From assembly GCA_945862135.1 (NCBI GenBank), contig CAMAYE010000013.1, forward strand, positions 1 to 32,026: a stretch of DNA of 32,026 nucleotides, written 5' to 3'. The translations under genes and the position numbers were made by a program. The DNA comes from Bordetella parapertussis (GTDB lineage Bacteria; Pseudomonadota; Gammaproteobacteria; Burkholderiales; SG8-41). Below are positions 1 through 11,651 of the stretch, one piece after another; the stretch's first letter is position 1; each line of letters starts with the position of its first letter. The notes under the pieces were generated by a model that saw only the letters and a list, made by a program, of their open reading frames with translations, did not search any database and was not told where the DNA came from.

Positions 1-980
1 CCCATCTGTACCAGTGTGGTGTCGATGCGTCCCTGAAGGTGGGTGCCGATCCCGGGCGCCATGGGGACATTGGTCCCGGTTACAAAGGAGTCATCCTGCA
101 AAGCTTTGCCGTAAGCGACCTTGAAATTGCCGTTGGTCGTCGGGGTGAATGCATAGCTGCCGGACAAATGCAGTTGATGTGAATGATTGTCGGGGGGCAG
201 GGCGATCGGGTTAAACGTCGACAGCCCGCCGGCGCCGCCGATGAAATTCAGTCCGTTGTTTTGATTGTTGTACATCGAGCCGTAATAACCACCGGTCATT
301 TGAAGGCTCTTGCCGGTGTAGCTCAAGGTCGCATCCAGTAACCGGATCGTGGAGTCGATGGGCTCGGGTGCAAATTCAAAAAGGCCGGCACCGCCTGTAG
401 AACCGCGCCCCCAAAGTCGTGCACCTTCCTTGGTTTCGTTACGAAAATCGACTTTGGCGCTCCATGCGTCGGAGAAATGCTTGTTGAAACCCATCCCGAT
501 TCGGTCGCGCCGGGTCTGCAGATCAAATGTTCCGGTGCGCCTGGCCGTGGAAGGTATGGTCAGGGTGTTGCCGCCTATACCGCCCACACCGGTGAAGGCC
601 TGGTAGGGTTCATTACGGGGAATCTGGTTGAACTCAAGGTAATAGCCCCAGTTGCCCTGTATTTCGTGTTCAAAGCGCAGCTCCCGGGTGTCTAGACCGA
701 GATTGCGGCCCTTCAGACGCAGCCAGCGTCCATTGCTGTCATCCCGGGAAACCAGATCCAGATCGAGAAGGCCATAAGCACCGGTATCGTTCAGTCCGTT
801 GTATTGGCCAAAGCGGCGAGCTTCGCCGTTCATGTAGCCGAGTCCGAAACTCACCGAACTCTGGGGCTTGGTCAATGCAGCGACCTCGGCGTCTTCGTTT
901 GCTGCTGCGGTGCCGAAGCAGGCCAGCAGCGCTGCGGCGATCGCGGTGGGCATCAGGACATTACGTTTTTGCGGTGTCAT
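1..980 (-). CDS. mtoB: MtrB/PioB-family outer-membrane porin of an extracellular electron-transfer complex (mtoB-like, 3'-truncated by window)
   Basis: About 326 residues are visible from the ATG at 978-980; the C-terminus lies beyond the window. The N-terminus is a Sec signal peptide (MTPQKRNVLMP... to about residue 27). The rest is barrel sequence with alternating aromatic and polar residues and the family-like segments VSFGLGYMNGEARRFGQYNG, LRLKGRNLGLDTRELRFE and YLEFNQIPRNEPYQ. Family members form the barrel that sheathes the decahaem MtrA/MtoA protein and carries electrons across the outer membrane. An AGGAGA ribosome site sits just upstream and the decahaem gene ends 22 bp before the start. 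The visible part lacks the N-terminal CxxC motif described for MtrB of metal-reducing Gammaproteobacteria, which fits the metal-oxidiser (MtoB/PioB) branch. The family call is firm; the direction of electron flow is inferred. Confidence 0.9.
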   Translation of the reverse strand, partial: MTPQKRNVLMPTAIAAALLACFGTAAANEDAEVAALTKPQSSVSFGLGYMNGEARRFGQYNGLNDTGAYGLLDLDLVSRDDSNGRWLRLKGRNLGLDTRELRFEHEIQGNWGYYLEFNQIPRNEPYQAFTGVGGIGGNTLTIPSTARRTGTFDLQTRRDRIGMGFNKHFSDAWSAKVDFRNETKEGARLWGRGSTGGAGLFEFAPEPIDSTIRLLDATLSYTGKSLQMTGGYYGSMYNNQNNGLNFIGGAGGLSTFNPIALPPDNHSHQLHLSGSYAFTPTTNGNFKVAYGKALQDDSFVTGTNVPMAPGIGTHLQGRIDTTLVQM

Positions 981-1002
981 GATCGTCTCCTGTTGGCGCG
1001 AA

Positions 1003-2013
1003 TCAACGCCGGAACGTACGCTCGTTGGAAATATTTGCCGGGTTATTGGTACCGTGAATCTGTGTGTGGCAGTTCAGGCAGCCGCGTGCCATTGCATTGG
1101 CGCCGGTCGAGGTGCCCGTCAGTGATGCAGGGGTTCCCTGGTGCGAAGATGCCTCGTGGCATTGCTGGCACAGGAAGGGCGAGCGTGCCTTCAGGAGATT
1201 GGGCGTGGTGGTGCCGTGCGGATTGTGGCAAATCGAGCAGTCTTCCTGCACAGGCTGGTGGGTGCGCACGAACGGTCCGCGCTTCTCCATGTGGCAGGTG
1301 TAACAGGTGTCATTGACGTTGTCGCGAACCAGGTTCTTAGGTCCTGCTGATCCGTGAGCGTTATGGCAATCCGAACAGGTGACTTTGCCTTCGGGAATCG
1401 GATGGCGTGATGGGCGCAAGATCTGTGCGCGCTGCTCCTTGTGGCAGGTGTAGCAGACTTGTGCCTGTTCGCGTTTGTCACGCACCTTGTCGTGGGTGGT
1501 GTGGACCTGATGGCATGAGGTGCAGGCGACATCGCGGCTGGCATGCATGCTGGTCTGCCAGTGCGTGCGTTTGTCGCCCTGGTGGCAGGACAGGCAGGCA
1601 CCGTTACGATCGGCGACAGGGGTATCGGTTTTTTTGCCGGCAACACCGAAGTAAACATCCACTGGCTGCGCGTCCTGCCGCGCCGGCGGCAGGCCATAGG
1701 TAATCGTGGGTTTCGGCCGTTCCTTGGTGTTGGGCGGACGGTTGATATGGGTTTCGCTGGCGCCGTGGCAGCTGATGCAGGTCGGTGTGCGTTTATCGGC
1801 GACCGTGCCGTGTTTCGTCCTGCCGATCGCGAGTACCGGATACTCCTCATCAACACCGTGGCAGCGTGTGCAGACCGCATCGCCTTTGAGCGCAAGATCC
1901 TTGCGCGGCGCTTTTGCAGAGTCCTGGGCCAGAGCCGGCTGTGCCATGGCGAACAGGCATAGCGCTGTGGTTATGCCGCGCATCAGGACGAGAATCGATT
2001 CGGTTGAAATCAT
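1003..2013 (-). CDS. mtoA: Periplasmic decahaem c-type cytochrome, MtrA/MtoA (DmsE) family
   Basis: This 336-residue protein has ten CxxCH haem-binding motifs, in order CTRCH, CISCH, CLSCH, CTSCH, CYTCH, CSDCH, CYTCH, CSICH, CQQCH and CLNCH. Both the haem count and the length match MtrA/MtoA/DmsE proteins. A signal peptide ends at about residue 29 (AQPALAQ). The ATG at 2013 is favoured because AAGGGAG lies eight bases upstream; an in-frame Met at residue 11 is the alternative. Family members are ten-haem wires that pass electrons through an MtrB-type porin between the periplasm and the cell exterior. The gene lies 39 bp after the CymA/NapC-like gene and 22 bp before the porin gene, as in Mto clusters of iron-oxidising Betaproteobacteria. 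Whether it oxidises Fe(II) or reduces an outside acceptor cannot be read from sequence. Confidence 0.95.
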   Translation of the reverse strand: MISTESILVLMRGITTALCLFAMAQPALAQDSAKAPRKDLALKGDAVCTRCHGVDEEYPVLAIGRTKHGTVADKRTPTCISCHGASETHINRPPNTKERPKPTITYGLPPARQDAQPVDVYFGVAGKKTDTPVADRNGACLSCHQGDKRTHWQTSMHASRDVACTSCHQVHTTHDKVRDKREQAQVCYTCHKEQRAQILRPSRHPIPEGKVTCSDCHNAHGSAGPKNLVRDNVNDTCYTCHMEKRGPFVRTHQPVQEDCSICHNPHGTTTPNLLKARSPFLCQQCHEASSHQGTPASLTGTSTGANAMARGCLNCHTQIHGTNNPANISNERTFRR

Positions 2014-2052
2014 CTGGTTTTCTCCCTTGATCCTGATGTGGGGCTCTGTGTT

Positions 2053-2664
2053 TTATTTCTTTTCGAGCTTCGCGGCCTTCAAATCCTGTGGCGTGGGGCC
2101 GTCAGGTTCCTTGTGCGCAATACCGTAGTGGCATTCAATGCATGTCATTTTTTCCCGGTCCGCCTTGGCGTGGCGGTTGCGGGCTTTTTCGGATTGCAGT
2201 TCGCTGCTCATGGATTCGCGCTTGTGGCAGTTGCGGCATTCCAGTGAATCGGTTTCCAGCATGCGATCCCAGACGCGGTGGGCCAGCATGGCGCGATGTT
2301 TCTCGAATTTTTCCGGGGTGTCGATCACACCTTGGAAGTGGCCGATGAGTTCAAAGGTGGCGCGCATCTTGCGCAGCACCAGCGGAATCGGTTCGCGCGG
2401 TACGTGGCAGTCGGAGCAGATGACATGTACGCCAGTGCGGTTGACGTCGTGGATCGTACCTTTGAACTCGGCATAGACGTTGTCTTTCATTTCGTGACAA
2501 CCGATGCAGAAGTCCTGAGTGTTGGTATAAGCCATTGCGGCCGCGCCAACAGTCATCAGCAAGCCAGCACCGACCAGGGCGATTACCAGCACGCCGGCGG
2601 TCAGTGTTACCCGGGAGCATGTTCGGCACCTGTTCTGCAGGTTATTCCACCATTTGCCGATCAT
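2053..2664 (-). CDS. mtoC: NapC/NirT-family tetrahaem cytochrome, CymA/MtoC-like quinone-linked membrane anchor
   Basis: This 203-residue protein has one N-terminal membrane helix (about residues 20-45) and four CxxCH motifs (CIGCH, CSDCH, CRNCH, CIECH), the standard NapC/NirT pattern. Such proteins sit in the inner membrane with haems facing the periplasm and exchange electrons between the quinone pool and periplasmic cytochromes. GGGAGG lies seven bases before the ATG. The position between a monohaem cytochrome gene and the decahaem gene matches the CymA homologue (MtoC/ImoA) of Sideroxydans-type clusters. In an Fe(II) oxidation pathway it would pass electrons into quinone; in a reductive pathway the reverse. 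NapC or NirT proper is unlikely because no nitrate or nitrite reductase gene is adjacent. Confidence 0.92.
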   Translation of the reverse strand: MIGKWWNNLQNRCRTCSRVTLTAGVLVIALVGAGLLMTVGAAAMAYTNTQDFCIGCHEMKDNVYAEFKGTIHDVNRTGVHVICSDCHVPREPIPLVLRKMRATFELIGHFQGVIDTPEKFEKHRAMLAHRVWDRMLETDSLECRNCHKRESMSSELQSEKARNRHAKADREKMTCIECHYGIAHKEPDGPTPQDLKAAKLEKK

Positions 2665-2707
2665 GTTCTGCCTCCCGGTTATTTATTGTTGTAATTGTTG
2701 GCAGGGC

Positions 2708-3043
2708 TCAGCGGCTCAGGATCCAGTCCACGGCGTTGCGGACTGCCTTGGCATCCTTGGTTTTCACCGCATCGTGTGTTTCTTCGACGCTATCAACCTT
2801 GATTTTTGGATTGGTGGTGATGTGTTTGGTGACCTTGTCGACTCCGTCGGCCTTTCCTTTGTACTTTGCGGCGGTTTCCTTGAAGGCCGGCCCGTCTTTT
2901 TTCTTGTCGACGGCGTGGCATTTGAAACAGCCACTTTTCTTGAGCAGGGCTTCCGCCGCGCTGGCGTCAACGTCTGCTGCATGAGCGGCACCAACGGTCA
3001 CTGCAAAGCTGGCGGCGGCGATAAGCAGATTTCGGGTGATCAT
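2708..3043 (-). CDS. mtoD: Small periplasmic monohaem cytochrome c, MtoD-like
   Basis: The 111-residue precursor has a Sec signal peptide (residues 1-22, ending AAHA) and one haem motif, CFKCH (39-43), in a class I cytochrome c context (EALLKKSGCFKCHAV, then GPAFKETAAKYKGK). The start at 3043 is chosen because the signal peptide begins there and GGAGAA lies upstream; the frame stays open further upstream but encodes no export signal. It is the first gene of the mto run, 43 bp before mtoC. A soluble shuttle between the decahaem complex and terminal enzymes is the expected role. The mature chain has no methionine, so the usual Met axial ligand is missing; His74 or His90 are candidate replacements. 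Confidence 0.88.
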   Translation of the reverse strand: MITRNLLIAAASFAVTVGAAHAADVDASAAEALLKKSGCFKCHAVDKKKDGPAFKETAAKYKGKADGVDKVTKHITTNPKIKVDSVEETHDAVKTKDAKAVRNAVDWILSR

Positions 3044-3254
3044 GTCAGTTGTTCTCCGGGTGATTAAAGAAGCCGCAGTGAAAGCTGCAGGGCTGCTTTT
3101 CAGTGGTTCGATCCGCTGATAGGACTTTTGTGTGCAGTGCACAATCCAAGCCTTTGAATTGGGCAAATCCGGATTGTCTGGTCTTTTCGCACATTGCGTT
3201 ATTCATTCTTTTGTTTCGCCTGCGCAGATTAGCAGTCGCAGTCTTCTGATTTCA

Positions 3255-3268
3255 TTGATTTACATCAA
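3255..3268. promoter_or_regulatory. Perfect FNR/DNR-type operator in the mto-regulator divergent region
   Basis: The site reads TTGAT-TTAC-ATCAA, an exact match to the FNR-family consensus TTGAT-N4-ATCAA. Its centre is at 3261.5. On the minus strand a TAATCT hexamer at 3226-3231 lies within one base of where the -10 of a class II FNR-activated promoter would fall (start near 3220, box centred at -41.5), so the spacing favours activation of the mto genes. No comparable -10 is seen at the matching position towards the regulator gene. Confidence 0.8.
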
Positions 3269-3308
3269 AATGACAGCCTAATTTGGCGTTTCGCTGCCTG
3301 GAATAAAA

Positions 3309-4118
3309 ATGGCGCCATGCTGTAGGGGATTGTCTTCGCGCCTCCCTTTGATCTTCGTCAATGAGCCGCAACGACGTGCAGAGATACTGAAGTCTCGAAA
3401 TATTCTTCAAAGAGGCTCGTCTGTGTGTGCTGCCGTAGCAGAGGTTTTACAGGCGTTTGCGAGCGTCAGTCTGTTTGCAGGTCTTGATCCATTGGCCTGC
3501 AAACGATTGGCCGAAGGGGCGGAACTCCGGGAGTTTTCTGGTGGTGACGTGATTTGCCGCGAAGGGGATCCCGGCACCGGTCTTCATCTTGTGACAAAGG
3601 GGCAGGTGAAATTGCTGCTCCAGGCGGGTAACGGGCACGAAAAAGTGTTTGATCTGATCGGCAAGGGCGCCTGTTTCGGTGAACCATCGTTGTACACCGA
3701 TCAACCCCATCTCGTGACCGCAGAGGCAATTGTCGACACGCAATTGCTGCATGTTCCCCGCGCTGATCTGCTCAAGGCGCTTCGAGATACACCAGAACTG
3801 GCTTTGCGGGTGATCAAGGGGCTGGCGTCGAGGATTTACCGGCGCACCCATGATCTGAAGAGTTACATGCTGATGTCAGGCACCCAGCGGGTTATCTGTT
3901 ACCTGTTGCATGAGGTGCCTTTTGAGGCGGAGGGGCCCGGGGAGGTTTCCGTGACACTGCCGGTGCGCAAAGGGCTTATTGCGTCGCGGCTGAATCTGAC
4001 CCAAGAGCACTTCTCTCGCATTCTCCATGAGCTCGCCGTCGCCACTCTGATCAAGGTGGAGGGGCAGCGGGTGCATATCCGCGATCTGTCGCGGCTGCGT
4101 GCAGCCGCGATGTCGTGA
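3309..4118 (+). CDS. Crp/Fnr-family transcriptional regulator with FNR-type DNA recognition helix
   Basis: The protein has an N-terminal cyclic-nucleotide-binding-type beta-roll (about residues 55-150), a dimer helix and a C-terminal winged helix-turn-helix. The recognition helix (about 221-241) contains TQEHFSRILHEL, giving E233, S236 and R237, the E-xx-SR pattern that reads TTGAT half-sites in FNR. A perfect such site lies 41 bp upstream. Cysteines are scattered (4, 5, 40, 64, 83, 122, 197) without the N-terminal Fe-S cluster pattern of FNR, so a DNR/NNR-like or other ligand-type sensor is more likely. The start is uncertain. The ATG at 3309 gives 269 residues with a weak ribosome site; an in-frame GTG at 3423, seven bases after AAAGAGG, gives 231 residues, closer to family length and perhaps the true start. 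It is divergent from mtoD and probably regulates it. Confidence 0.85.
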   Translation: MAPCCRGLSSRLPLIFVNEPQRRAEILKSRNILQRGSSVCAAVAEVLQAFASVSLFAGLDPLACKRLAEGAELREFSGGDVICREGDPGTGLHLVTKGQVKLLLQAGNGHEKVFDLIGKGACFGEPSLYTDQPHLVTAEAIVDTQLLHVPRADLLKALRDTPELALRVIKGLASRIYRRTHDLKSYMLMSGTQRVICYLLHEVPFEAEGPGEVSVTLPVRKGLIASRLNLTQEHFSRILHELAVATLIKVEGQRVHIRDLSRLRAAAMS

Positions 4119-4133
4119 GCGGTTAAACGCGCG

Positions 4134-4919
4134 TTACTTGAAGCGCCAGGTGACACCCATTGTCAGCTGGGTCGTTTGCGTATCGCCATCGCGGTTGTTA
4201 CGGATGACGCCGAAGGCAAAATCGAGATCCTTGCTGGGCGAGTAGATGGCCCCGACTTCGACATAACCCATCCAGTCTTTTGCGCTGCGATCAGCGTTGG
4301 TCATCGCGCCGGTGTCCAGCGCCAGCTTCCAGCCTTCTGCAACATCCCATACCGGAGCGACAGACAGCCGATATTGCGTGCGACGTTCGGCGGCGTTCAG
4401 CGTGTCATCAGCATAGTTGGCGCGATCCACCTGCAGGTTGGCGAGAAAAGAGCCGAAGCTGGTTTCCTGGGTCATCAGCAATCCGAGACCATAAGACGTC
4501 TTGCCGGTACCCAATCCGCGGGCTTCCTTGCTGTCAGAAACACCGATACTGACCTCAGGTTTTACGGCAAAGCTCAGCTTGCTGGCTTCATTTTCATAAA
4601 AACGCCATTTGGCGCCGATCACCGGATTACTCCAGCCGGATTCGGTTACAGCCGGCGCATCCGGAGCGATGCGTGTGCGGGTGCCGCCGGCGTAGACGTC
4701 GAGTTCATCGGTAATGCCGCGTGTATAAACCAGGGGGATCTCATGCGTGATCGTGCGGCCAGCGGGCGTTTTGTCGGTGGTGCGGTTGTAGCCCGCCTCG
4801 ATCTGGTTCCCGCCTTCACCCTGGGTTCCGGTGTCGTCGGTGATCAATGGCTGAAAAGCGAGGGCTGCTACGGGCATGGCCGCTGCCAACCCCATGATTT
4901 TATTCAATAAACCGCGCAT
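4134..4919 (-). CDS. Outer-membrane beta-barrel protein, phenol-degradation MetA-like transporter superfamily
   Basis: This 261-residue protein has a signal peptide (to about residue 22, AALAF) and an early segment FQPLITDDTGTQGEGGNQIE, followed by alternating beta-strand sequence. It ends in MGVTWRFK, a C-terminal strand followed by one extra residue. The opening motif and length resemble the PF13557-type outer-membrane proteins found near metabolic and electron-transfer genes. The ribosome site AAGGAAA precedes the ATG. The gene ends 15 bp after the convergent Crp/Fnr gene and is preceded by an inverted repeat (4956-4991). Substrate and role are unknown; a link to the mto genes is only positional. 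Confidence 0.7.
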   Translation of the reverse strand: MRGLLNKIMGLAAAMPVAALAFQPLITDDTGTQGEGGNQIEAGYNRTTDKTPAGRTITHEIPLVYTRGITDELDVYAGGTRTRIAPDAPAVTESGWSNPVIGAKWRFYENEASKLSFAVKPEVSIGVSDSKEARGLGTGKTSYGLGLLMTQETSFGSFLANLQVDRANYADDTLNAAERRTQYRLSVAPVWDVAEGWKLALDTGAMTNADRSAKDWMGYVEVGAIYSPSKDLDFAFGVIRNNRDGDTQTTQLTMGVTWRFK

Positions 4920-4955
4920 GATTTTCCTTGTTCAAGAATTCGCAAAATGACTGCC

Positions 4956-4991
4956 CCTAAGTTTAACGGCTATGGGTGCGCAAACTTTAGG
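4956..4991. repeat. Imperfect inverted repeat between PRPP synthetase and the barrel gene
   Basis: CCTAAGTTT (4956-4964) pairs with AAACTTTAGG (4982-4991) apart from one bulged base, across 17 bases. It lies between the stop of the PRPP synthetase gene and the start of the barrel gene, both on the minus strand. No clear U-run follows in the minus direction, so it may be an operator or a weak attenuator rather than a classical terminator. Confidence 0.4.
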
Positions 4992-5028
4992 TCAACTTGC
5001 AGTCTTGCCTCTTGTTCCCGCCCCTGTT

Positions 5029-5928
5029 TTATCTCTGCATTGCAGGAATGGTATGCGCAATTATTCGAAACATGCTGATGCCGTTGGTGGGGTGCGGGAT
5101 GGTGTCGGTGGTAATGACGCTGGCTGCGCCAGCAGCGAGCAGGGCTTTATGGGCATCGCCTGAAAATACGGCATGAACGCCGATGCAGACCGGCGCTTGC
5201 AGTCCTTGCGCCATCACATGCCGTACAGCAGCGACCATTGTGTGTCCTGTTGAAATGATGTCATCGACCAGCACCGGTGTGCGGCCTTGCAGCGCGGCCG
5301 GATCGGGAATGCTGACGGATACATCGCGGTCGCCTCGGCGGATCTTTTCCAGCACTACATGCGGCACGCCGGCAATCTTTGCCACGGCCGATACCCATTG
5401 TTCGCTCTCGCTATCCGGTCCGATCAGCACTGGCGCTGCAACGTTAGCCTTGATCCATTCCGCCAGCAGCGGCGCGGCAGGAACAACGGTACTCGGCACC
5501 GAGTAAATATCCCCGAGTGCATGCCATCGATGCAGGTGCGGGTCCACTGTGACCAGCCAGTCGATGTGGCGCGACAGCAGTTGCGCAAAAACGGCCGATG
5601 TCACCGCCTCGCCCTCCTGAAAGCGTTTGTCCTGCCGCATGTAACCGAGATAAGGCGTGACGAGTCCGACGCTTGTGGCGCCCAGTTCACGAGCGGTCGA
5701 TGCGGCAAACAGCAGCGGCATGATGTTGTCGTCGGGATGATGCAGGCTGCAGGCAAGAATAACTTTACAACCGCTGACAGGCGTATCGAAGCGCAGATAG
5801 GTTTCACCGTCGGGAAAGCGGCGAATGGCCAATGTACCGGCGGTGGCATGGAGTTCCGCCGTCAATGTCGCAGCCAGCGTTTCGTTGCCGGGCAGCGCAA
5901 AAATTGCGGTGTTTACGTTACTGGTCAT
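5029..5928 (-). CDS. prs: Ribose-phosphate pyrophosphokinase (PRPP synthetase), divergent form
   Basis: This 299-residue protein has the PRPP synthetase landmarks: RRFPDGETYLRF near the N-terminus, TPYLGYMRQDKRFQEGEAVT, the loop VTVDPHLHRW, the flexible-loop-like LEKIRRGDRDV, and the PRPP-binding loop VLVDDIISTGHTM. The enzyme makes PRPP from ribose 5-phosphate and ATP. The VDPHLHRW loop and short length depart from housekeeping bacterial Prs (VDLHAxQIQGFF), so this is probably a second, specialised copy. Its ATG overlaps the stop of the upstream phosphorylase gene in an ATGA (5925-5928), indicating translational coupling. With that partner it may work in nucleoside or nucleotide phosphorolysis and salvage. 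Substrate specificity is not determined. Confidence 0.85.
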   Translation of the reverse strand: MTSNVNTAIFALPGNETLAATLTAELHATAGTLAIRRFPDGETYLRFDTPVSGCKVILACSLHHPDDNIMPLLFAASTARELGATSVGLVTPYLGYMRQDKRFQEGEAVTSAVFAQLLSRHIDWLVTVDPHLHRWHALGDIYSVPSTVVPAAPLLAEWIKANVAAPVLIGPDSESEQWVSAVAKIAGVPHVVLEKIRRGDRDVSVSIPDPAALQGRTPVLVDDIISTGHTMVAAVRHVMAQGLQAPVCIGVHAVFSGDAHKALLAAGAASVITTDTIPHPTNGISMFRIIAHTIPAMQR

Positions 5929-7454
5929 TGTCCGTTGGCGATTGCGATGATCGGCGGCTGTGCGTACAGATAGGCCAGCGCATAGGCGAGTTCACCCGGC
6001 GTTTCGGCATGCAGCGTGAACAGCGGCTGGCCGCGTTCAACGCGGGTGCCGACGGGTGTGTGCAGATAAAGCCCCGCGGCCGGAGACTGCGGTGCGCCGG
6101 CGAGTTTGGCGACACGCGCGAGGCGGCGGTTGTCGATGCTGATCACCGGGCCCGCGGTGGGCGCGGTGATTACGTGTGTATGCGCGGCCTGCGGCGGCAC
6201 GCGAAGGCCGCCCTGCGCTTCGCAGATGGCCTGGAATTTGCGCCAGGCCTGGCCGTCATCGATCAGCCCGCGCGCTTTGGCAACGGCGGCCTCCGGCGTC
6301 ACGCTGCCGTCCATTTCAAAAATGCGGCCGGCCAGCGCCACCGCTCGCTCGCGCAGATCCTGCGGGGCATTGGCTTCATTACGCAGCACGGCGAGAACGT
6401 CGCGCGCTTCCAGTGCCGGGCCGATGCCGCGGCCTACCGGCTGGCTGCCGTCAGTCATCAGCACGCTGATCTGCAGGCCGGCGGTCTGGCCGATTTTCAC
6501 CATCGCGGTTTCAAGAGACTTGGCGGCTTCGATGCTGCGGATTTTCGCGGTCGGGCCGACCGGCATGTCGATGACCACATGCGTGGCGCCAGCCGCAGCC
6601 TTTTTCGACAGGATGGAAGCAATCATCTGCCCCTCACTGTCGATATCCAGGGGCCGTTCGACGCGGATCAGTATGTCATCGGCAGGGCTCAACTGCACCG
6701 CGCCGCCCCAGACAATGCAGCCGCCGACCTGTTCGACGACGCGGCGCATCGCCTTGACGTCGAGCGCCACCGGCGCCAGCGTTTCCATCGCATCTGCAGT
6801 ACCGGCGGGGGAAGTGATTGCGCGTGACGATGTCTTTGGCATCGTCAGTCCGGCAGCGACAACGATGGCGACAACGATCGGCGTTGTGCGATTGCCCGGC
6901 AGGCCGCCAACCGAATGTTTGTCCACGATCAGCGGCCGGTCCCACGACAGGCGTTCGCCGACGGCGATCATCGCTCGCGTCAGTGCCCCGGTCTCGGCGG
7001 TGTTGAGCCGGTCGCCGGCGCAGGCGGTGATGAAGGCTGACAGTTCGATGTCGGTGTATTTGCGTGCAGCGATGTCTCTGATGACAGCGTGCATTGCCGT
7101 TTCATCCAGGCGCAGGCCGTAGACCTTTGCACGTACATGGCGCATCGACTCCAGGGGTTCGGGGTGCGACAGCGTAACCACATCGTCGTCTTTGGCATCC
7201 AGCAGCTTCCAGGCGATTTCTGAGAGGCCGATTTCGTGGGTGCCGAGCAACTCGCCGGTGACGATGTTGAGAGTGGTCAGCACGCTGCGCCCGTGCAGGC
7301 TGACCAGCACGCGCGAATGCGACTCAAAGCCTTCTGAGCGGCAGATCGCGCAGTCGCTGCGCATGAACACCACCGGCTCGTAATAGGTGTCGATTCCGAG
7401 GCGGCGCACCTGCAGCACGTTGATGGCGCGGTCATGGGGCTGGAGGTTGTTCAT
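5925..7454 (-). CDS. Thymidine/AMP phosphorylase homologue of the long archaeal type
   Basis: The 509-residue protein is longer than E. coli-type thymidine phosphorylase (about 440) because of an N-terminal domain of about 85 residues, as in archaeal AMP phosphorylases. The catalytic part carries VDKHSVGGLPGNRTTPIVVA, the phosphate-binding region, followed by PKTSSRAITSPAGTADAMET. Family enzymes cleave nucleosides or nucleoside 5'-monophosphates with phosphate; the archaeal branch gives ribose 1,5-bisphosphate from AMP. The gene overlaps the PRPP synthetase start by four bases. Annotation pipelines usually call this a putative thymidine phosphorylase. Whether the substrate is thymidine or a nucleotide is unresolved; the extra N-terminal domain favours a nucleotide. 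Confidence 0.85.
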   Translation of the reverse strand: MNNLQPHDRAINVLQVRRLGIDTYYEPVVFMRSDCAICRSEGFESHSRVLVSLHGRSVLTTLNIVTGELLGTHEIGLSEIAWKLLDAKDDDVVTLSHPEPLESMRHVRAKVYGLRLDETAMHAVIRDIAARKYTDIELSAFITACAGDRLNTAETGALTRAMIAVGERLSWDRPLIVDKHSVGGLPGNRTTPIVVAIVVAAGLTMPKTSSRAITSPAGTADAMETLAPVALDVKAMRRVVEQVGGCIVWGGAVQLSPADDILIRVERPLDIDSEGQMIASILSKKAAAGATHVVIDMPVGPTAKIRSIEAAKSLETAMVKIGQTAGLQISVLMTDGSQPVGRGIGPALEARDVLAVLRNEANAPQDLRERAVALAGRIFEMDGSVTPEAAVAKARGLIDDGQAWRKFQAICEAQGGLRVPPQAAHTHVITAPTAGPVISIDNRRLARVAKLAGAPQSPAAGLYLHTPVGTRVERGQPLFTLHAETPGELAYALAYLYAQPPIIAIANGQ

Positions 7455-7489
7455 GGTTGTTGCTGCACGCAGGCTTTCTGGATAAGACT

Positions 7490-7834
7490 TTATTTTACGG
7501 GATCAATGCTTGTGACAATGTAAGCTCCGCCGCTCTGTTCTGCGGTGAATTTTATTTTGTCCCCGGTTTTGGCCCGGTCAAGCAATGCCGGATCCTTGAC
7601 CTGGAACACCATGGTCATCGGCGGCATGTTGAGATTGTTGATCGGACCGTGACGGATCGTGATTTTCTGTGTGTCGCGATCGACTTTGCGGATTTCGCCA
7701 TCGCTCAGTGCGGACACGGCAGCGGGTGCGGACTGAGGTGAAGCATGTGACGAGTGGTCGGCAGCATTTTGCTGGGCAAATGCAGGCGCTGTCATTGCAG
7801 AGACAATCAGTGCCAGTGTCGGTGCGTATTTCAT
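7490..7834 (-). CDS. cusF: CusF-like periplasmic copper-binding protein
   Basis: This 114-residue protein has a signal peptide (residues 1-20, APAFA), a His-containing linker (DHSSHAS) and a CusF OB-fold domain. The copper motif is IRHGPINNLNMPPMTMVF, giving H62, M70, M73 and M75. Spacing equals that of E. coli CusF (H36, W44, M47, M49), but the copper-capping Trp is Met here. CusF proteins carry periplasmic Cu(I) or Ag(I) to efflux or oxidase partners. It is the last gene of the copper run, 23 bp after the CopG-like gene. No CusA-type pump is adjacent, so delivery to the oxidase and TolC-like partners of this operon, or simple buffering, is inferred. Confidence 0.88.
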   Translation of the reverse strand: MKYAPTLALIVSAMTAPAFAQQNAADHSSHASPQSAPAAVSALSDGEIRKVDRDTQKITIRHGPINNLNMPPMTMVFQVKDPALLDRAKTGDKIKFTAEQSGGAYIVTSIDPVK

Positions 7835-7857
7835 CGTGGTCTCCTTTACTTGGATAA

Positions 7858-8304
7858 TCAGCGCCCGTAGCGGGCATAAACGGAATGGCGACCGCTCTTG
7901 TCCACCAGCAGCACGTCGTACGGTTGGGGTGTGGCGGATTCCATGCCGGGTGATCCCTGCGGCATTCCCGGCACGGCAAGTCCGGTGGCCACCGGTTTTT
8001 CAGCCAGAAGGCGTTTGATTTCACGTGCGGGCACATGGCCTTCGATGGCATAACCTTCAATCACCGCGGTATGGCAGCCGCCGAGTTTTTCAGGAATGCC
8101 GAGGCGTTTGCGCATCACCGCAGTGTCTTCGACTGAAACCGGCTTCACACGGAAGCCGTTGGCGCGCAGATGATCCATCCACGCGCCGCAGCAGCCTCAG
8201 GTCGGGTTCAGGTACACCGTCGCTAACGTGGGCTCCGCCGTCATGGCAGTGCCCGATAGCATCATCGCGGCCATTGCAGTCAGGATTTTGCGTCGGTCGT
8301 TCAT
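7858..8304 (-). CDS. copG: CopG-like DUF411 copper-resistance protein with in-frame UGA, candidate selenoprotein
   Basis: Read from the ATG at 8302-8304 through a TGA at 8197-8199, this gives a complete 148-residue DUF411 protein: signal peptide (1-23), TVYLNPT-U-GCCGAWMDHL, then LGGCHTAVIEGYAIEGHVP and GLAVPGMPQGSPGME. DUF411/CopG proteins carry CxCC, a thioredoxin-fold copper site; here the TGA is exactly the first Cys, so the motif becomes U36-G-C38-C39, with C77 as the further cysteine. Nine bases after the UGA begins a 12-bp stem with a GAU loop, matching bacterial SECIS geometry. AAAGGTG precedes the ATG, which lies 4 bp after the cupredoxin stop. No other lesion is visible. The alternative is a TGC-to-TGA nonsense mutation or sequencing error; translation starting at Met43 would lack both signal peptide and metal motif. 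Family call is near certain; selenocysteine is inferred. Confidence 0.8.
8161..8187 (-). promoter_or_regulatory. Candidate bacterial SECIS hairpin in the CopG-like gene
   Basis: On the minus strand GGCGCGUGGAUG (8187-8176) pairs fully with CAUCUGCGCGCC (8172-8161), 12 bp including two G-U pairs, closing the triloop GAU (8175-8173). The stem starts 9 nt after the UGA and the loop begins after 21 nt. The published general model of bacterial SECIS elements asks for a stem-loop directly after the UGA, an apical loop roughly 16-37 nt away and a G among the first loop bases; all are met. The segment is also coding and GC-rich, so chance pairing must be excluded. Confidence 0.65.
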
Positions 8305-8308
8305 GTCA

Positions 8309-8812
8309 TCACCTTTGCGTTACGTTGATCTTGCCGACCATGCCGGCTTCGAAATGACCCGGCAGCAGGCAGCCGAAGTGGAATTCGCCGCCTTTGCTGA
8401 ACTGCCAGAAAATGGTTTCAGTTTTTTCGGGTGGCACATGCGCCATGTAAGGCTCGTCATGTTCCATGTTCGGGAATTTTTTCATCAGTTCGGCGTGTTC
8501 CATCAGTTCGGGGAGTGTGCCCAGCACGAACTCGTGCATGGTCTTGCCGGAATTGGTGACAATGAACTTTACGGTTTCGCCCTGCTTGATGGTCAGCGTC
8601 GCCGGCGTGAAACGCATTTTGTCGCTCATGTCGACCTTGACCGTTCGCGCGACTTTTTCCGGATCGCCAGCTTTGCCGAATGATTTTTCTTCGTTGCTGA
8701 TCGTGCCGGGCTTGGCGGATTTGGGGGCGTGCGCGTCGCCATGCGCCCAAGCCGGGACGGCGATCAGGCACGCGGTAATACAGGCGACGCTGAGTACTCG
8801 GGCTGCATTCAT
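8309..8812 (-). CDS. Periplasmic cupredoxin (plastocyanin/azurin-like copper protein)
   Basis: The 167-residue precursor has a signal peptide (1-23, VPAWA) and one cupredoxin domain. Type 1 copper ligands are visible as H93 (in KTMHEF) and C148, H153 and M158 in FHFGCLLPGHFEAGM. Between strands lies a Met- and His-rich insertion (about 100-127: ELMEHAELMKKFPNMEHDE) that may bind extra copper. The start at 8812 is chosen because the signal peptide begins there; an in-frame ATG at 8836 would only add eight residues, and upstream extension runs into the oxidase gene. It sits between the multicopper oxidase and CopG-like genes, so it likely carries copper or electrons for them in the periplasm. 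Clean family call; partner unknown. Confidence 0.9.
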   Translation of the reverse strand: MNAARVLSVACITACLIAVPAWAHGDAHAPKSAKPGTISNEEKSFGKAGDPEKVARTVKVDMSDKMRFTPATLTIKQGETVKFIVTNSGKTMHEFVLGTLPELMEHAELMKKFPNMEHDEPYMAHVPPEKTETIFWQFSKGGEFHFGCLLPGHFEAGMVGKINVTQR

Positions 8813-8846
8813 ATTGGCTTCAATAAATATCAACATAATCAATAGC

Positions 8847-10223
8847 TTAGTGTTTGTGTCCGGACGCCGGTTTGCGAGCCTGCAGTAGGTGTTCGCCCGC
8901 GTCCGGCACAGCGGTCGCTGCGCTGGTCGCCGCCGGCGCTGCACCGGTCCACTCGCGTGCAACCGTGCCCGGCGGATGCTTGAACCAGCCCGGGTCTTTG
9001 TAGTCGTTGCGCGCGAGGCCATCACGCACTTTGACCACGCTGAACATGCCGCCCATCTCCAGCGGCCCGAAGGGGCCGCGGCCGGTCATCATCGGCAGCG
9101 TGTTGTCGGGCAGCGGCATTTCCATTTCACCCATGTCCGCCATGCCGCGTTCACTCATCACCATGTAATCGGGCACCAGCTTCATGATTTTTTCGGCGAC
9201 GCCGCGATGGTCGACACCGATCATCGTCGGCACGCCGTGCCCCATGGCGTTCATCGTGTGGTGCGACTTGTGGCAATGGATTGCCCAGTCGCCCGGCACG
9301 TCCGCGGTGAACTCGAAGGCGCGCATCTGACCGACTGCGACGTCCACCGTCACTTCCGGCCAGCGCGCGGACTTCGGCACCCAGCCGCCGTCAGTGCAGG
9401 TGACCTCAAAGTCGTAACCGTGCATGTGCACCGGATGATTGGTCATCGTCAGGTTGCCGAAGCGGACACGCACTTTGTCGCCGGTGCGCACCACAAACGG
9501 ATCAATGCCGGGAAACGCCCTTGAGTTCCAGCACCACAGGTTGAAGTCGAGCATAGTGTTGACGTTCGGAGTTGCTGCGCCGGGTTTGACGTCGAAGGCG
9601 TTGAGCAGGAACACAAAGTCACGATCGACCTTCATGAAATTCGGATTTTTCGGGTGCACCACAAAAAATCCCATCATGCCCATCGCCATCTGCGTCATTT
9701 CGTCGGCGTGAGGGTGATACATGAAGGTGCCGGATTTCTTCATTTCGAATTCATAGACGAAAGTTTTTCCGACCGGAATCTGCGGCTGGGTAAGTCCACC
9801 GACACCATCCATGCCATTGGGCAGCAGGATGCCGTGCCAGTGCATGGTGGTGTGCTCCGGCAGCTTGTTGGTGACGAAGATTCGCAGCTTGTCGCCTTCG
9901 ACGCATTCGATGGTCGGGCCCGGCGACTGGCCGTTGTAACCCCACAGATTGGCGGTCATGCCGGGGGCGATCTGACGGCGCACCGGTTCAGCGATCAGGT
10001 GAAATTCCTTCCAGCCCTTGTTCATGCGCCAGGGCAGGGTCCAGCCGTTCACTGTCACGACCGGGTTGTAAGGGCGACCGCTGGCTGGCATCAATGGCGG
10101 CTGCGTGTCGGGTTTTGATTGCATCGGCGCTTCGGGTACTGCGCCCTGCGCGGCGCGGCTGACCGTCGCGGCGCCAAGCAGTGCGGCGCCGGAGGCGCGG
10201 AGGAAATTGCGGCGGTTATTCAT
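8847..10223 (-). CDS. Tat-exported multicopper oxidase, apparently two-domain, with Met-rich tail
   Basis: This 458-residue protein starts with a twin-arginine signal (NNRRNFLRASGAALLG). Copper motifs are MHWHG (127-131), YHPH (169-172), HPVHMHG (263-269) and HCHKSHHTMNAM (316-327), the last giving the type 1 ligands C317, H322 and M327. Only about 90 residues separate the first and second motif pairs, so it looks like a two-domain enzyme with type 1 copper in domain 2. A tail (about 354-395) is rich in Met (MADMGEMEMPLP). Such enzymes oxidise Cu(I), Fe(II) or phenols using O2. In this operon, Cu(I) oxidation is the likely job; ferroxidase activity is possible given the Mto cluster. The cupredoxin gene follows after 34 bp. 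Confidence 0.9.
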   Translation of the reverse strand: MNNRRNFLRASGAALLGAATVSRAAQGAVPEAPMQSKPDTQPPLMPASGRPYNPVVTVNGWTLPWRMNKGWKEFHLIAEPVRRQIAPGMTANLWGYNGQSPGPTIECVEGDKLRIFVTNKLPEHTTMHWHGILLPNGMDGVGGLTQPQIPVGKTFVYEFEMKKSGTFMYHPHADEMTQMAMGMMGFFVVHPKNPNFMKVDRDFVFLLNAFDVKPGAATPNVNTMLDFNLWCWNSRAFPGIDPFVVRTGDKVRVRFGNLTMTNHPVHMHGYDFEVTCTDGGWVPKSARWPEVTVDVAVGQMRAFEFTADVPGDWAIHCHKSHHTMNAMGHGVPTMIGVDHRGVAEKIMKLVPDYMVMSERGMADMGEMEMPLPDNTLPMMTGRGPFGPLEMGGMFSVVKVRDGLARNDYKDPGWFKHPPGTVAREWTGAAPAATSAATAVPDAGEHLLQARKPASGHKH

Positions 10224-10238
10224 GTCTTGATCCGTTCC

Positions 10239-11651
10239 TTAGTGGCCGGCTTCCGCGGCTGGCGCGGCGGCGCGCAGGCTGCCGCCCGATGCCGCAATGG
10301 CGCCCGGCGACTTGCCGTTGATCGTGAACTGCAGGGTGGTGTCGGCAAGCCAGAAGTCGCGCTGCGCTTCGATGGCGGTGATGACCGCGCTGACCTGCTG
10401 GCGGGATTCGGCGAGCAGTTCAAACACACTCATCAGCATGCCGTTGTAGCGCAGCAGCGTTTCTTCGCTGATGCGCGCCCGCAACGGCACTATTTCGTCG
10501 CGGTAGTGCCTGGCCAGATCGTAGCTGCTGCGCCAGGCGCCGTAGGCTTCTCGCACTTCCGAGCGGGCACGTATGGCGAGGTCTGCTGCTTGGTTTACTG
10601 CCTGCCGGTGGGTGTTTTCGGCCCGCGCCAGTTTTGCCGAGCCGGAATCGAAGATCGGCAGCCGCAGTTCGATTTCGTAACCGGTTTTGCGCGGTTGGCC
10701 GCTTTCGCTGTTGCGGATGTATTTCGCTTCGAAAACGCTGAAATACCCGGTGGCCTTGGTCAGTCCCAGCGAGTTGGCGATGTTTTCGGCATGACGTGCG
10801 GCTTCCTGCACATCAAGCCTCTGCTGCATGGCTTGTCTTTCGATGTCGGTCATGTCGCGCAGCGATGGCGGAAGATCTGGCAGGCGTTCCGGCAGCTTGA
10901 ACGCAATGTCGTTGCCCCACAGTCCGAGAAGCCGGGTCAGCCGCTCGCGTTCTGCCAGCGCCTGCTGACGGGCGCGTGCCAGTTGTGCGGCGGCATCGGC
11001 ATAAAATGCCTGCTCCCTCGCTTGATCGAGTTTGCTGAAATTTCCGGCTTTGACCATGCGCCGCGCCAGTTCGGATGCCGCCTCGGCGGCGCTTTTGACC
11101 TGTTCGGCATAAGTCGCTGATTGTTGCGCAGCGACTGCGCTGATCCAGGCGCGTCGGGTGTCAGCAGCGACCTGCATGATGCTGGCCGCCATGCGGCCCT
11201 GCGCGAGTTCGAAACGTTCCTGTTCCAGTTGCGTTCGTAGCGGCATCGTCAGCAAACCCAGAAGGTCGAAAATGAAGGCCCGTTCATATTCGACATCATC
11301 CGCGCGATGCGTACGGCCAAACGAGAAGCCCGGATTGCGCAGGCGGCCGGCTTGCACCAGGTCGGATTCGGCAATGCCCAGCTCGGCGTATGCGGATTGC
11401 AGTCCGCGGTTGTTGAGCAGTGCAATCTGTACCGCGTTGTCGGCGGTCAGCGGTTGCGCCAGCAGGGCACGTACCTGATCGTCGGCTCGCTTGGCGTCAT
11501 CTTGATTTTTGATCCATGGCACCTGCTGTGTGATGCCGCGTGCGCTCAGGGCGTCATTGACCTTGCGCGTACCGCCTTCTTCGGAAAAGGTGGCGCAGCC
11601 GCCGAGCAGGAACACGACGAAGGCGGCCATGAGCGATTTGACGTTATTCAT
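10239..11651 (-). CDS. TolC-family outer-membrane efflux lipoprotein
   Basis: This 470-residue protein has a lipoprotein signal with lipobox LLGGC (15-19) and then the TolC/OEP pattern of two repeats rich in long amphipathic helices, for example NRGLQSAYAELGIAESDLVQA, followed by a second half ending in LLRYNGMLMSVFELLAESRQQ. Such proteins are trimeric exit ducts for RND or ABC efflux. Its ATG overlaps the stop of the small upstream gene (11648-11651). The operon encodes no pump or adaptor; the nearest are the RND pair at 13574-17846 on the other strand, which in turn lacks its own duct. The duct may instead carry copper-related cargo, as in CusC- and CopB-like systems. The C-terminal Ala-rich tail is low-complexity. 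Confidence 0.9.
   Translation of the reverse strand: MNNVKSLMAAFVVFLLGGCATFSEEGGTRKVNDALSARGITQQVPWIKNQDDAKRADDQVRALLAQPLTADNAVQIALLNNRGLQSAYAELGIAESDLVQAGRLRNPGFSFGRTHRADDVEYERAFIFDLLGLLTMPLRTQLEQERFELAQGRMAASIMQVAADTRRAWISAVAAQQSATYAEQVKSAAEAASELARRMVKAGNFSKLDQAREQAFYADAAAQLARARQQALAERERLTRLLGLWGNDIAFKLPERLPDLPPSLRDMTDIERQAMQQRLDVQEAARHAENIANSLGLTKATGYFSVFEAKYIRNSESGQPRKTGYEIELRLPIFDSGSAKLARAENTHRQAVNQAADLAIRARSEVREAYGAWRSSYDLARHYRDEIVPLRARISEETLLRYNGMLMSVFELLAESRQQVSAVITAIEAQRDFWLADTTLQFTINGKSPGAIAASGGSLRAAAPAAEAGH

Follow-up and report, generated by a model that had tools for sequence, protein, structure and literature searches.

The window (the whole stretch of DNA that was analyzed, 32,026 nucleotides, taken from a draft assembly of 310 contigs) carries on its minus strand a DUF411 gene encoding a CopG-type protein. 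The reading frame extends from an ATG at 8304-8302 to a stop codon at 7860-7858 and contains a single internal TGA as codon 36 (8199-8197), around which the product reads NPT-U-GCCGAW. The earlier note had placed this TGA at the first cysteine of the CxCC motif in an otherwise intact gene, and translation together with homology on both sides confirmed the assignment. The signal-peptide-like start and the 112 codons 3' of the TGA were intact as described; the gene also has a ribosome-site-like stretch, AAAGG, and lies 4 bp from the upstream cupredoxin gene. In a profile search, the product matched PF04214 with 92.2 bits (cut-off 27) over residues 75-121, and CopG of known structure (PDB 6wis) matched residues 24-146 with 112 bits and an E value of 2e-31. 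As judged from these alignments, homology to CopG is clearly present on both sides of the UGA. The features of the locus are compiled in Table 1.

Table 1. Features of the copG locus and its neighborhood
Feature	Position in window	Strand	Details and basis
copG (DUF411) gene, predicted Sec form	7858..8304	-	148 aa, Sec36, stop TGA; translation with TGA=U, PF04214, 6wis E 2e-31
In-frame UGA, predicted Sec36, first position of C/U-x-C-C motif	8197..8199	-	column recurrence across genomes
Putative signal peptide, residues 1-23	8236..8304	-	direct sequence reading
Cys38-Cys39, other cysteines of UGCC motif	8188..8193	-	Cys38 invariant, Cys39 at least 90% (67-sequence alignment)
Cys77, followed by His78 (CH invariant)	8074..8076 (Cys77)	-	67-sequence alignment
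Met114, candidate Met ligand	7963..7965	-	invariant column; presumed equivalent of a residue of the CopG two-Met set (PMC7558416)
Met121, candidate Met ligand	7942..7944	-	invariant column; presumed equivalent of a residue of the CopG two-Met set (PMC7558416)
SECIS-like RNA element from UGA; upper hairpin 8161-8187, G at first loop position	8152..8199	-	folding, synonymous-site selection, covariation
CusF-like periplasmic copper-binding protein, next gene downstream	7490..7834	-	PF11604 E 3e-28; near copG in 26/45 family loci
Plastocyanin/azurin-like cupredoxin, next gene upstream	8309..8812	-	PF00127 E 5e-9; near copG in 23/45 family loci
Multicopper oxidase	8847..10223	-	PF07732, PF07731; in 19/45 family loci
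TolC-type outer-membrane efflux protein	10239..11651	-	PF02321 E 1e-22

The upstream cupredoxin gene itself stops with TGA (8311-8309), four bases before the copG ATG. Copper genes adjoin the Sec form of copG in the betaproteobacterial family to which the window belongs. An acidobacterial locus likewise has a multicopper oxidase beside the gene, but copper neighbors are few in the other phyla, and the substrate is therefore less certain there. Elsewhere in the window, two multihaem cytochrome-like genes with many CxxCH motifs lie at 1003-3166, with a small cytochrome-like gene beside them at 2708-3166.

A search of the window's genome for the selenocysteine machinery recovered every component sought: a tRNA-Sec with anticodon TCA, SelA and SelB encoded on one contig, and SelD. 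The selD gene (contig C170, L045) carries an in-frame UGA of its own in the context SHGGG-U-GCK; GGG-U-GCK is where SelD usually has its Sec. Sec-containing SelD is a positive control for UGA recoding inside this genome. On contig C103 (L040, 2-4999), selA, selB, a gene for a thioredoxin-reductase-like FAD protein, a gene for an unknown protein of 182 residues and the tRNA-Sec gene follow each other in a single run; a connection with selenium is possible for the reductase-like gene, which stands between selB and selC. In many genomes, FdhA is the principal selenoprotein. The best match to formate dehydrogenase alpha in the window's genome (contig C39, L214) lacks an in-frame TGA and looks like a Cys form, implying that the use of Sec in this lineage is independent of that enzyme.

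To assess recurrence of the codon, 74 genomes of the window's family were searched in six frames, and a homologue was found in 46. All loci were fetched, and 43 of the 46 genomes have TGA at the residue-36 column; 42 family genomes other than that of the window, independently assembled, thus share it. Three family copies (L022, L061 and L066) have TGC instead, one genome (G054) contains both forms, Sec and Cys, on the same contig, and a few partial copies end short of the column. Extra broken or partial DUF411 copies were seen close together at L068 and L070 (genomes G036 and G002), some having the TGA in the column and a frame that breaks further on. Of the 43 TGA-form genomes of the family, 41 had a SelB above the cut-off.

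A wider scan with the degenerate pattern [P/A]-x-U-G-C-C-x-x-W-x-x-[H/Y] covered one genome for each of 84,980 prokaryote species; the pattern itself requires the TGA and the motif, and its matches show the spread of the Sec form, not its share of DUF411 proteins. At least 119 places matched, of which 80 were fetched. A profile built from the family identified 76 of these as DUF411 genes with TGA at the residue-36 column, distributed over about 10 phyla, three of them being cut short after about 30 codons. The other four were chance matches that the family profile did not recognize. Among the matches listed, the Sec form is carried by Beta- and Gammaproteobacteria, Acidobacteriota, Gemmatimonadota, Rokuibacteriota, Methylomirabilota, Chloroflexota, Actinomycetota, Deltaproteobacteria/Myxococcota, Desulfuromonas, Tectimicrobiota and Helicobacter brantae. 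The last of these, strain MIT 04-9366 (L106), is a named isolate that has both Sec-CopG and SelB, so Sec-CopG extends beyond uncultured lineages. Relatives with UGA at the same column, which the earlier note had proposed to look for, are therefore numerous. SelB was found in 43 of 50 TGA-form genomes of other lineages, and the seven without detectable SelB are drafts that may be incomplete.

When the order and the phylum were sampled evenly, the Cys form was far commoner than the Sec form outside the window's family. In all 57 other homologues in which the column was read, Cys (TGC or TGT) was the sole alternative residue. Among the hits outside the family, 8 from the order sample and 5 or 6 from the phylum sample had been flagged as containing one TGA; their column encodes Cys (TGC or TGT), and the counted stop was terminal or elsewhere. 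Among 250 genomes sampled from the order, SelB occurred in all 6 TGA-form genomes and in 22 of 83 Cys-form genomes, related genomes being counted as independent. A plasmid collection held 3453 DUF411 records, each less than 60% identical to the window's copG product.

The coding sequence beyond the TGA has been maintained. In 120 pairs compared within the genus, the median dN/dS 3' of the TGA was 0.20; these codons are under purifying selection. In a tree of 155 homologues calculated with the U/C column masked, at least eight Sec/Cys changes were needed and well-supported branches forced at least two, the alignment offering few columns and the tree having many open forks; we are unsure of the direction of these changes. 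A recent change from Sec to Cys is likely for one species nested inside the genus (G022, locus L022), which has TGC for TGA and a hairpin that is still mostly intact. SelA and SelB were not found in this genome, which is 74% complete, so their absence is only suggestive.

The RNA following the UGA was then analyzed. The 48 nt starting at the UGA of the window's copG fold at -28.2 kcal/mol (z -5.3 versus dinucleotide shuffles), and the apical loop G-A-U begins 21 nt past the UGA, a geometry that, as we understand it, fits the published bacterial SECIS consensus. Constraint on the RNA was separated from constraint on the protein by shuffling synonymous codons within each gene. Among 101 Sec genes, windows starting at the UGA or three codons later were stabler than their shuffles (mean z -1.12 and -1.17, respectively; SE 0.13), and windows elsewhere in these genes had z values near zero. 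The same test revealed no structure signal at synonymous sites in 23 Cys homologues. Pairs 18-34, 19-33 and 22-30 were enriched at synonymous positions. Base 22 and wobble base 30 covaried in Sec forms as G-C or A-U with an odds ratio of 19 (p 8e-10), and in the genome-scan subset with an odds ratio of 5.4, relatives being counted as independent in both cases; the association was absent in 56 Cys forms (p 0.75). Individual folds of distant members gave a weaker or differently shaped hairpin, and an Rfam search of the window found no RNA family. These comparisons point to a SECIS-like element directly 3' of the UGA that is selected at synonymous sites.

The earlier note had read the TGA as a candidate selenocysteine codon and had named a nonsense mutation or read error as the main alternative. 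The reading as Sec is supported by the sel genes, the recurrence in the column, the constraint downstream and the SECIS-like element. A nonsense mutation, a pseudogene or an assembly error that happened to hit the first cysteine would require just one base change from TGC or TGT, and the genome is, as stated, a draft. The same column holds TGA in well over 100 loci from about 10 phyla, however, the sequence past it is constrained, and nearly all copies are free of other internal stops and frameshifts. Because the independent assemblies of the 42 family genomes and 76 of the 80 scan loci share the TGA, chance and read error were dismissed, and with the recurrence and the downstream dN/dS taken together we regard this explanation as practically negligible. 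It is also conceivable that the UGA is decoded without selenium, as Trp, Cys or Gly, by an altered code or near-cognate readthrough. Insertion of Cys ought to be tolerable, given that homologues carry it, and the Sec machinery can insert Cys under selenium shortage. The last codons of the Sec genes (68 TGA, 30 TAA and 17 TAG) contradict a reassigned code: TGA ends many of these genes as an ordinary stop, and UGA has thus not been reassigned. In addition, tRNA-Sec, SelA, SelB and Sec-containing SelD are present, the codon tracks the presence of SelB, and the hairpin signal was confined to TGA forms. Decoding as another amino acid is accordingly extremely unlikely. A third idea retains selenium and assigns the UGA a function as a conserved regulatory stop, at which a short peptide would be released and the full protein made only when selenium is available, tying copper handling to selenium supply. 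Every Sec UGA is a conditional stop, and the frame 5' of this one comprises only the signal peptide plus 12 residues. Against this, the short peptide is without evidence of function and the C-terminal part of the protein is strongly conserved; we hold it very unlikely as the purpose of the codon, and it supplements the reading as Sec without replacing it. The in-frame TGA at 8197-8199 is genuine; it almost certainly encodes selenocysteine, and Sec is very probably inserted at residue 36 of the CopG-type protein, as far as genome data can indicate.

What Sec36 does depends on the fold and on the residues around it. In an alignment of 67 sequences, U/C36, C38, C77, H78, M114 and M121 were invariant and C39 was at least 90% conserved. 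The AlphaFold model of the window's CopG reached a pLDDT of 95.6, and its best Foldseek matches were the CopG structures 6wis and 6wje (TM 0.92-0.93, 46% identity). With high confidence, therefore, the product is predicted to fold like CopG. CopG is a periplasmic thioredoxin-like protein that holds a tetranuclear copper cluster by its CxCC motif and two methionines, and it has been proposed to oxidize Cu(I) and to hand copper to multicopper oxidases (PMC7558416). Of the four cysteines conserved at this site, Sec36 would replace the first. By analogy with CopG, we rate the chance that Sec36 is a direct copper ligand as even or slightly better.

The main alternative to copper binding by Sec is a redox function of the selenoprotein. 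Sec36 and Cys39 might form a UxxC redox pair of a thiol-disulfide or copper-ion reductase or oxidase, Sec then being no stable copper ligand. In a thioredoxin fold, U-G-C-C is UxxC at the place where thioredoxins carry CxxC; redox functions are assumed for most bacterial selenoproteins (PMC13188914), and the genomic context is not always copper-related. Retention of all four Cys/Sec positions and both methionines as in CopG speaks against this proposal, as does the solved structure, in which the CxCC motif and two methionines hold the copper cluster (PMC7558416). We consider a purely redox-active pair a possibility of some substance, albeit a doubtful one. The two functions are mutually compatible.

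The likeliest mechanism, in view of the kept ligands, the matching fold, the described role of CopG and the neighboring genes, is CopG chemistry with one selenolate ligand. SelB and tRNA-Sec, guided by the hairpin just past the UGA, would insert Sec at position 36. The protein would be exported, as its putative signal peptide suggests, and would then fold like CopG. Sec36, Cys38, Cys39 and Cys77 would form the copper site in the thioredoxin fold together with the two invariant methionines. Together with the neighboring cupredoxin, CusF-like protein and multicopper oxidase, the protein might bind periplasmic copper and perhaps alter its redox state, to judge from CopG and the operon. Selenium chemistry suggests that a selenolate in place of a thiolate would be a softer ligand for Cu(I), would allow quicker redox exchange and would ease rescue from over-oxidation.

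The author of the earlier note had known of no described Sec-containing CopG, and none came to light in the sources consulted. Neither DUF411 nor CopG nor PF04214 figures among the 119 families of prokaryotic selenoproteins inventoried in 2026 (PMC13188914). No NCBIfam model (June 2026) was passed by Sec-CopG, glutaredoxin matches being sub-threshold only. The searchable full-text literature yielded no Sec-containing CopG, DUF411 or COG3019 protein; preprints, supplements and subscription papers were outside its coverage, and an earlier mention is possible. From the genomes, many environmental bacteria, the source of the window among them, appear to make CopG with selenium for sulfur at the first copper-binding residue. 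We see an even chance that Sec36 ligates the CopG copper cluster in a natural copper-selenolate site and that Sec-CopG is, at the same time, a widespread, overlooked selenoprotein family and one user of the Sec machinery in a lineage where the best formate dehydrogenase match carries Cys. The well-studied biological sites in which selenocysteine binds a metal contain nickel, molybdenum or tungsten; a copper-selenolate site, if true, would to our knowledge be the first biological copper center with selenocysteine. The bacterial selenoproteome would gain a family across about 10 phyla, members of which standard annotation would truncate at the UGA or call pseudogenes. Selenium supply would be linked to periplasmic copper resistance, and Sec-CopG and Cys-CopG would offer a natural pair for probing the effect of selenium at a multinuclear copper site.

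Sec-CopG resembles CopG (PF04214; 6wis, 6wje) in fold, motif cysteines, the Cys-His pair, the methionine positions, the signal peptide and the copper-operon neighbors. It differs in that a UGA (Sec) codon takes the place of the first CxCC cysteine, that a SECIS-like hairpin follows and that the gene is linked to SelB. Bacterial selenoproteins with roles in metal handling have been described, namely MerT-like proteins (C/SxxU), a cation ATPase (UxxC), the SO_0444 Cu/Zn efflux transporter (UxC) and a CopZ-like 2Fe-2S protein (PMC13188914). Like these, Sec-CopG was predicted by genomics to have Sec for a metal-binding or redox cysteine. These proteins belong to other folds and families, however; none is a DUF411/CopG protein, and none has Sec as part of a known multinuclear copper site. 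With the UxxC selenoproteins of the thioredoxin fold (Trx, Grx, DsbA/DsbG-like proteins and the UXX-star glutaredoxin-like family NF041212), Sec-CopG shares the fold and U at the first active-site position. Unlike them, it also has Cys38, Cys77 and the methionines known from CopG, and in the NCBIfam profile search NF041212 scored 14.8 bits against it, far below the cut-off of 66.
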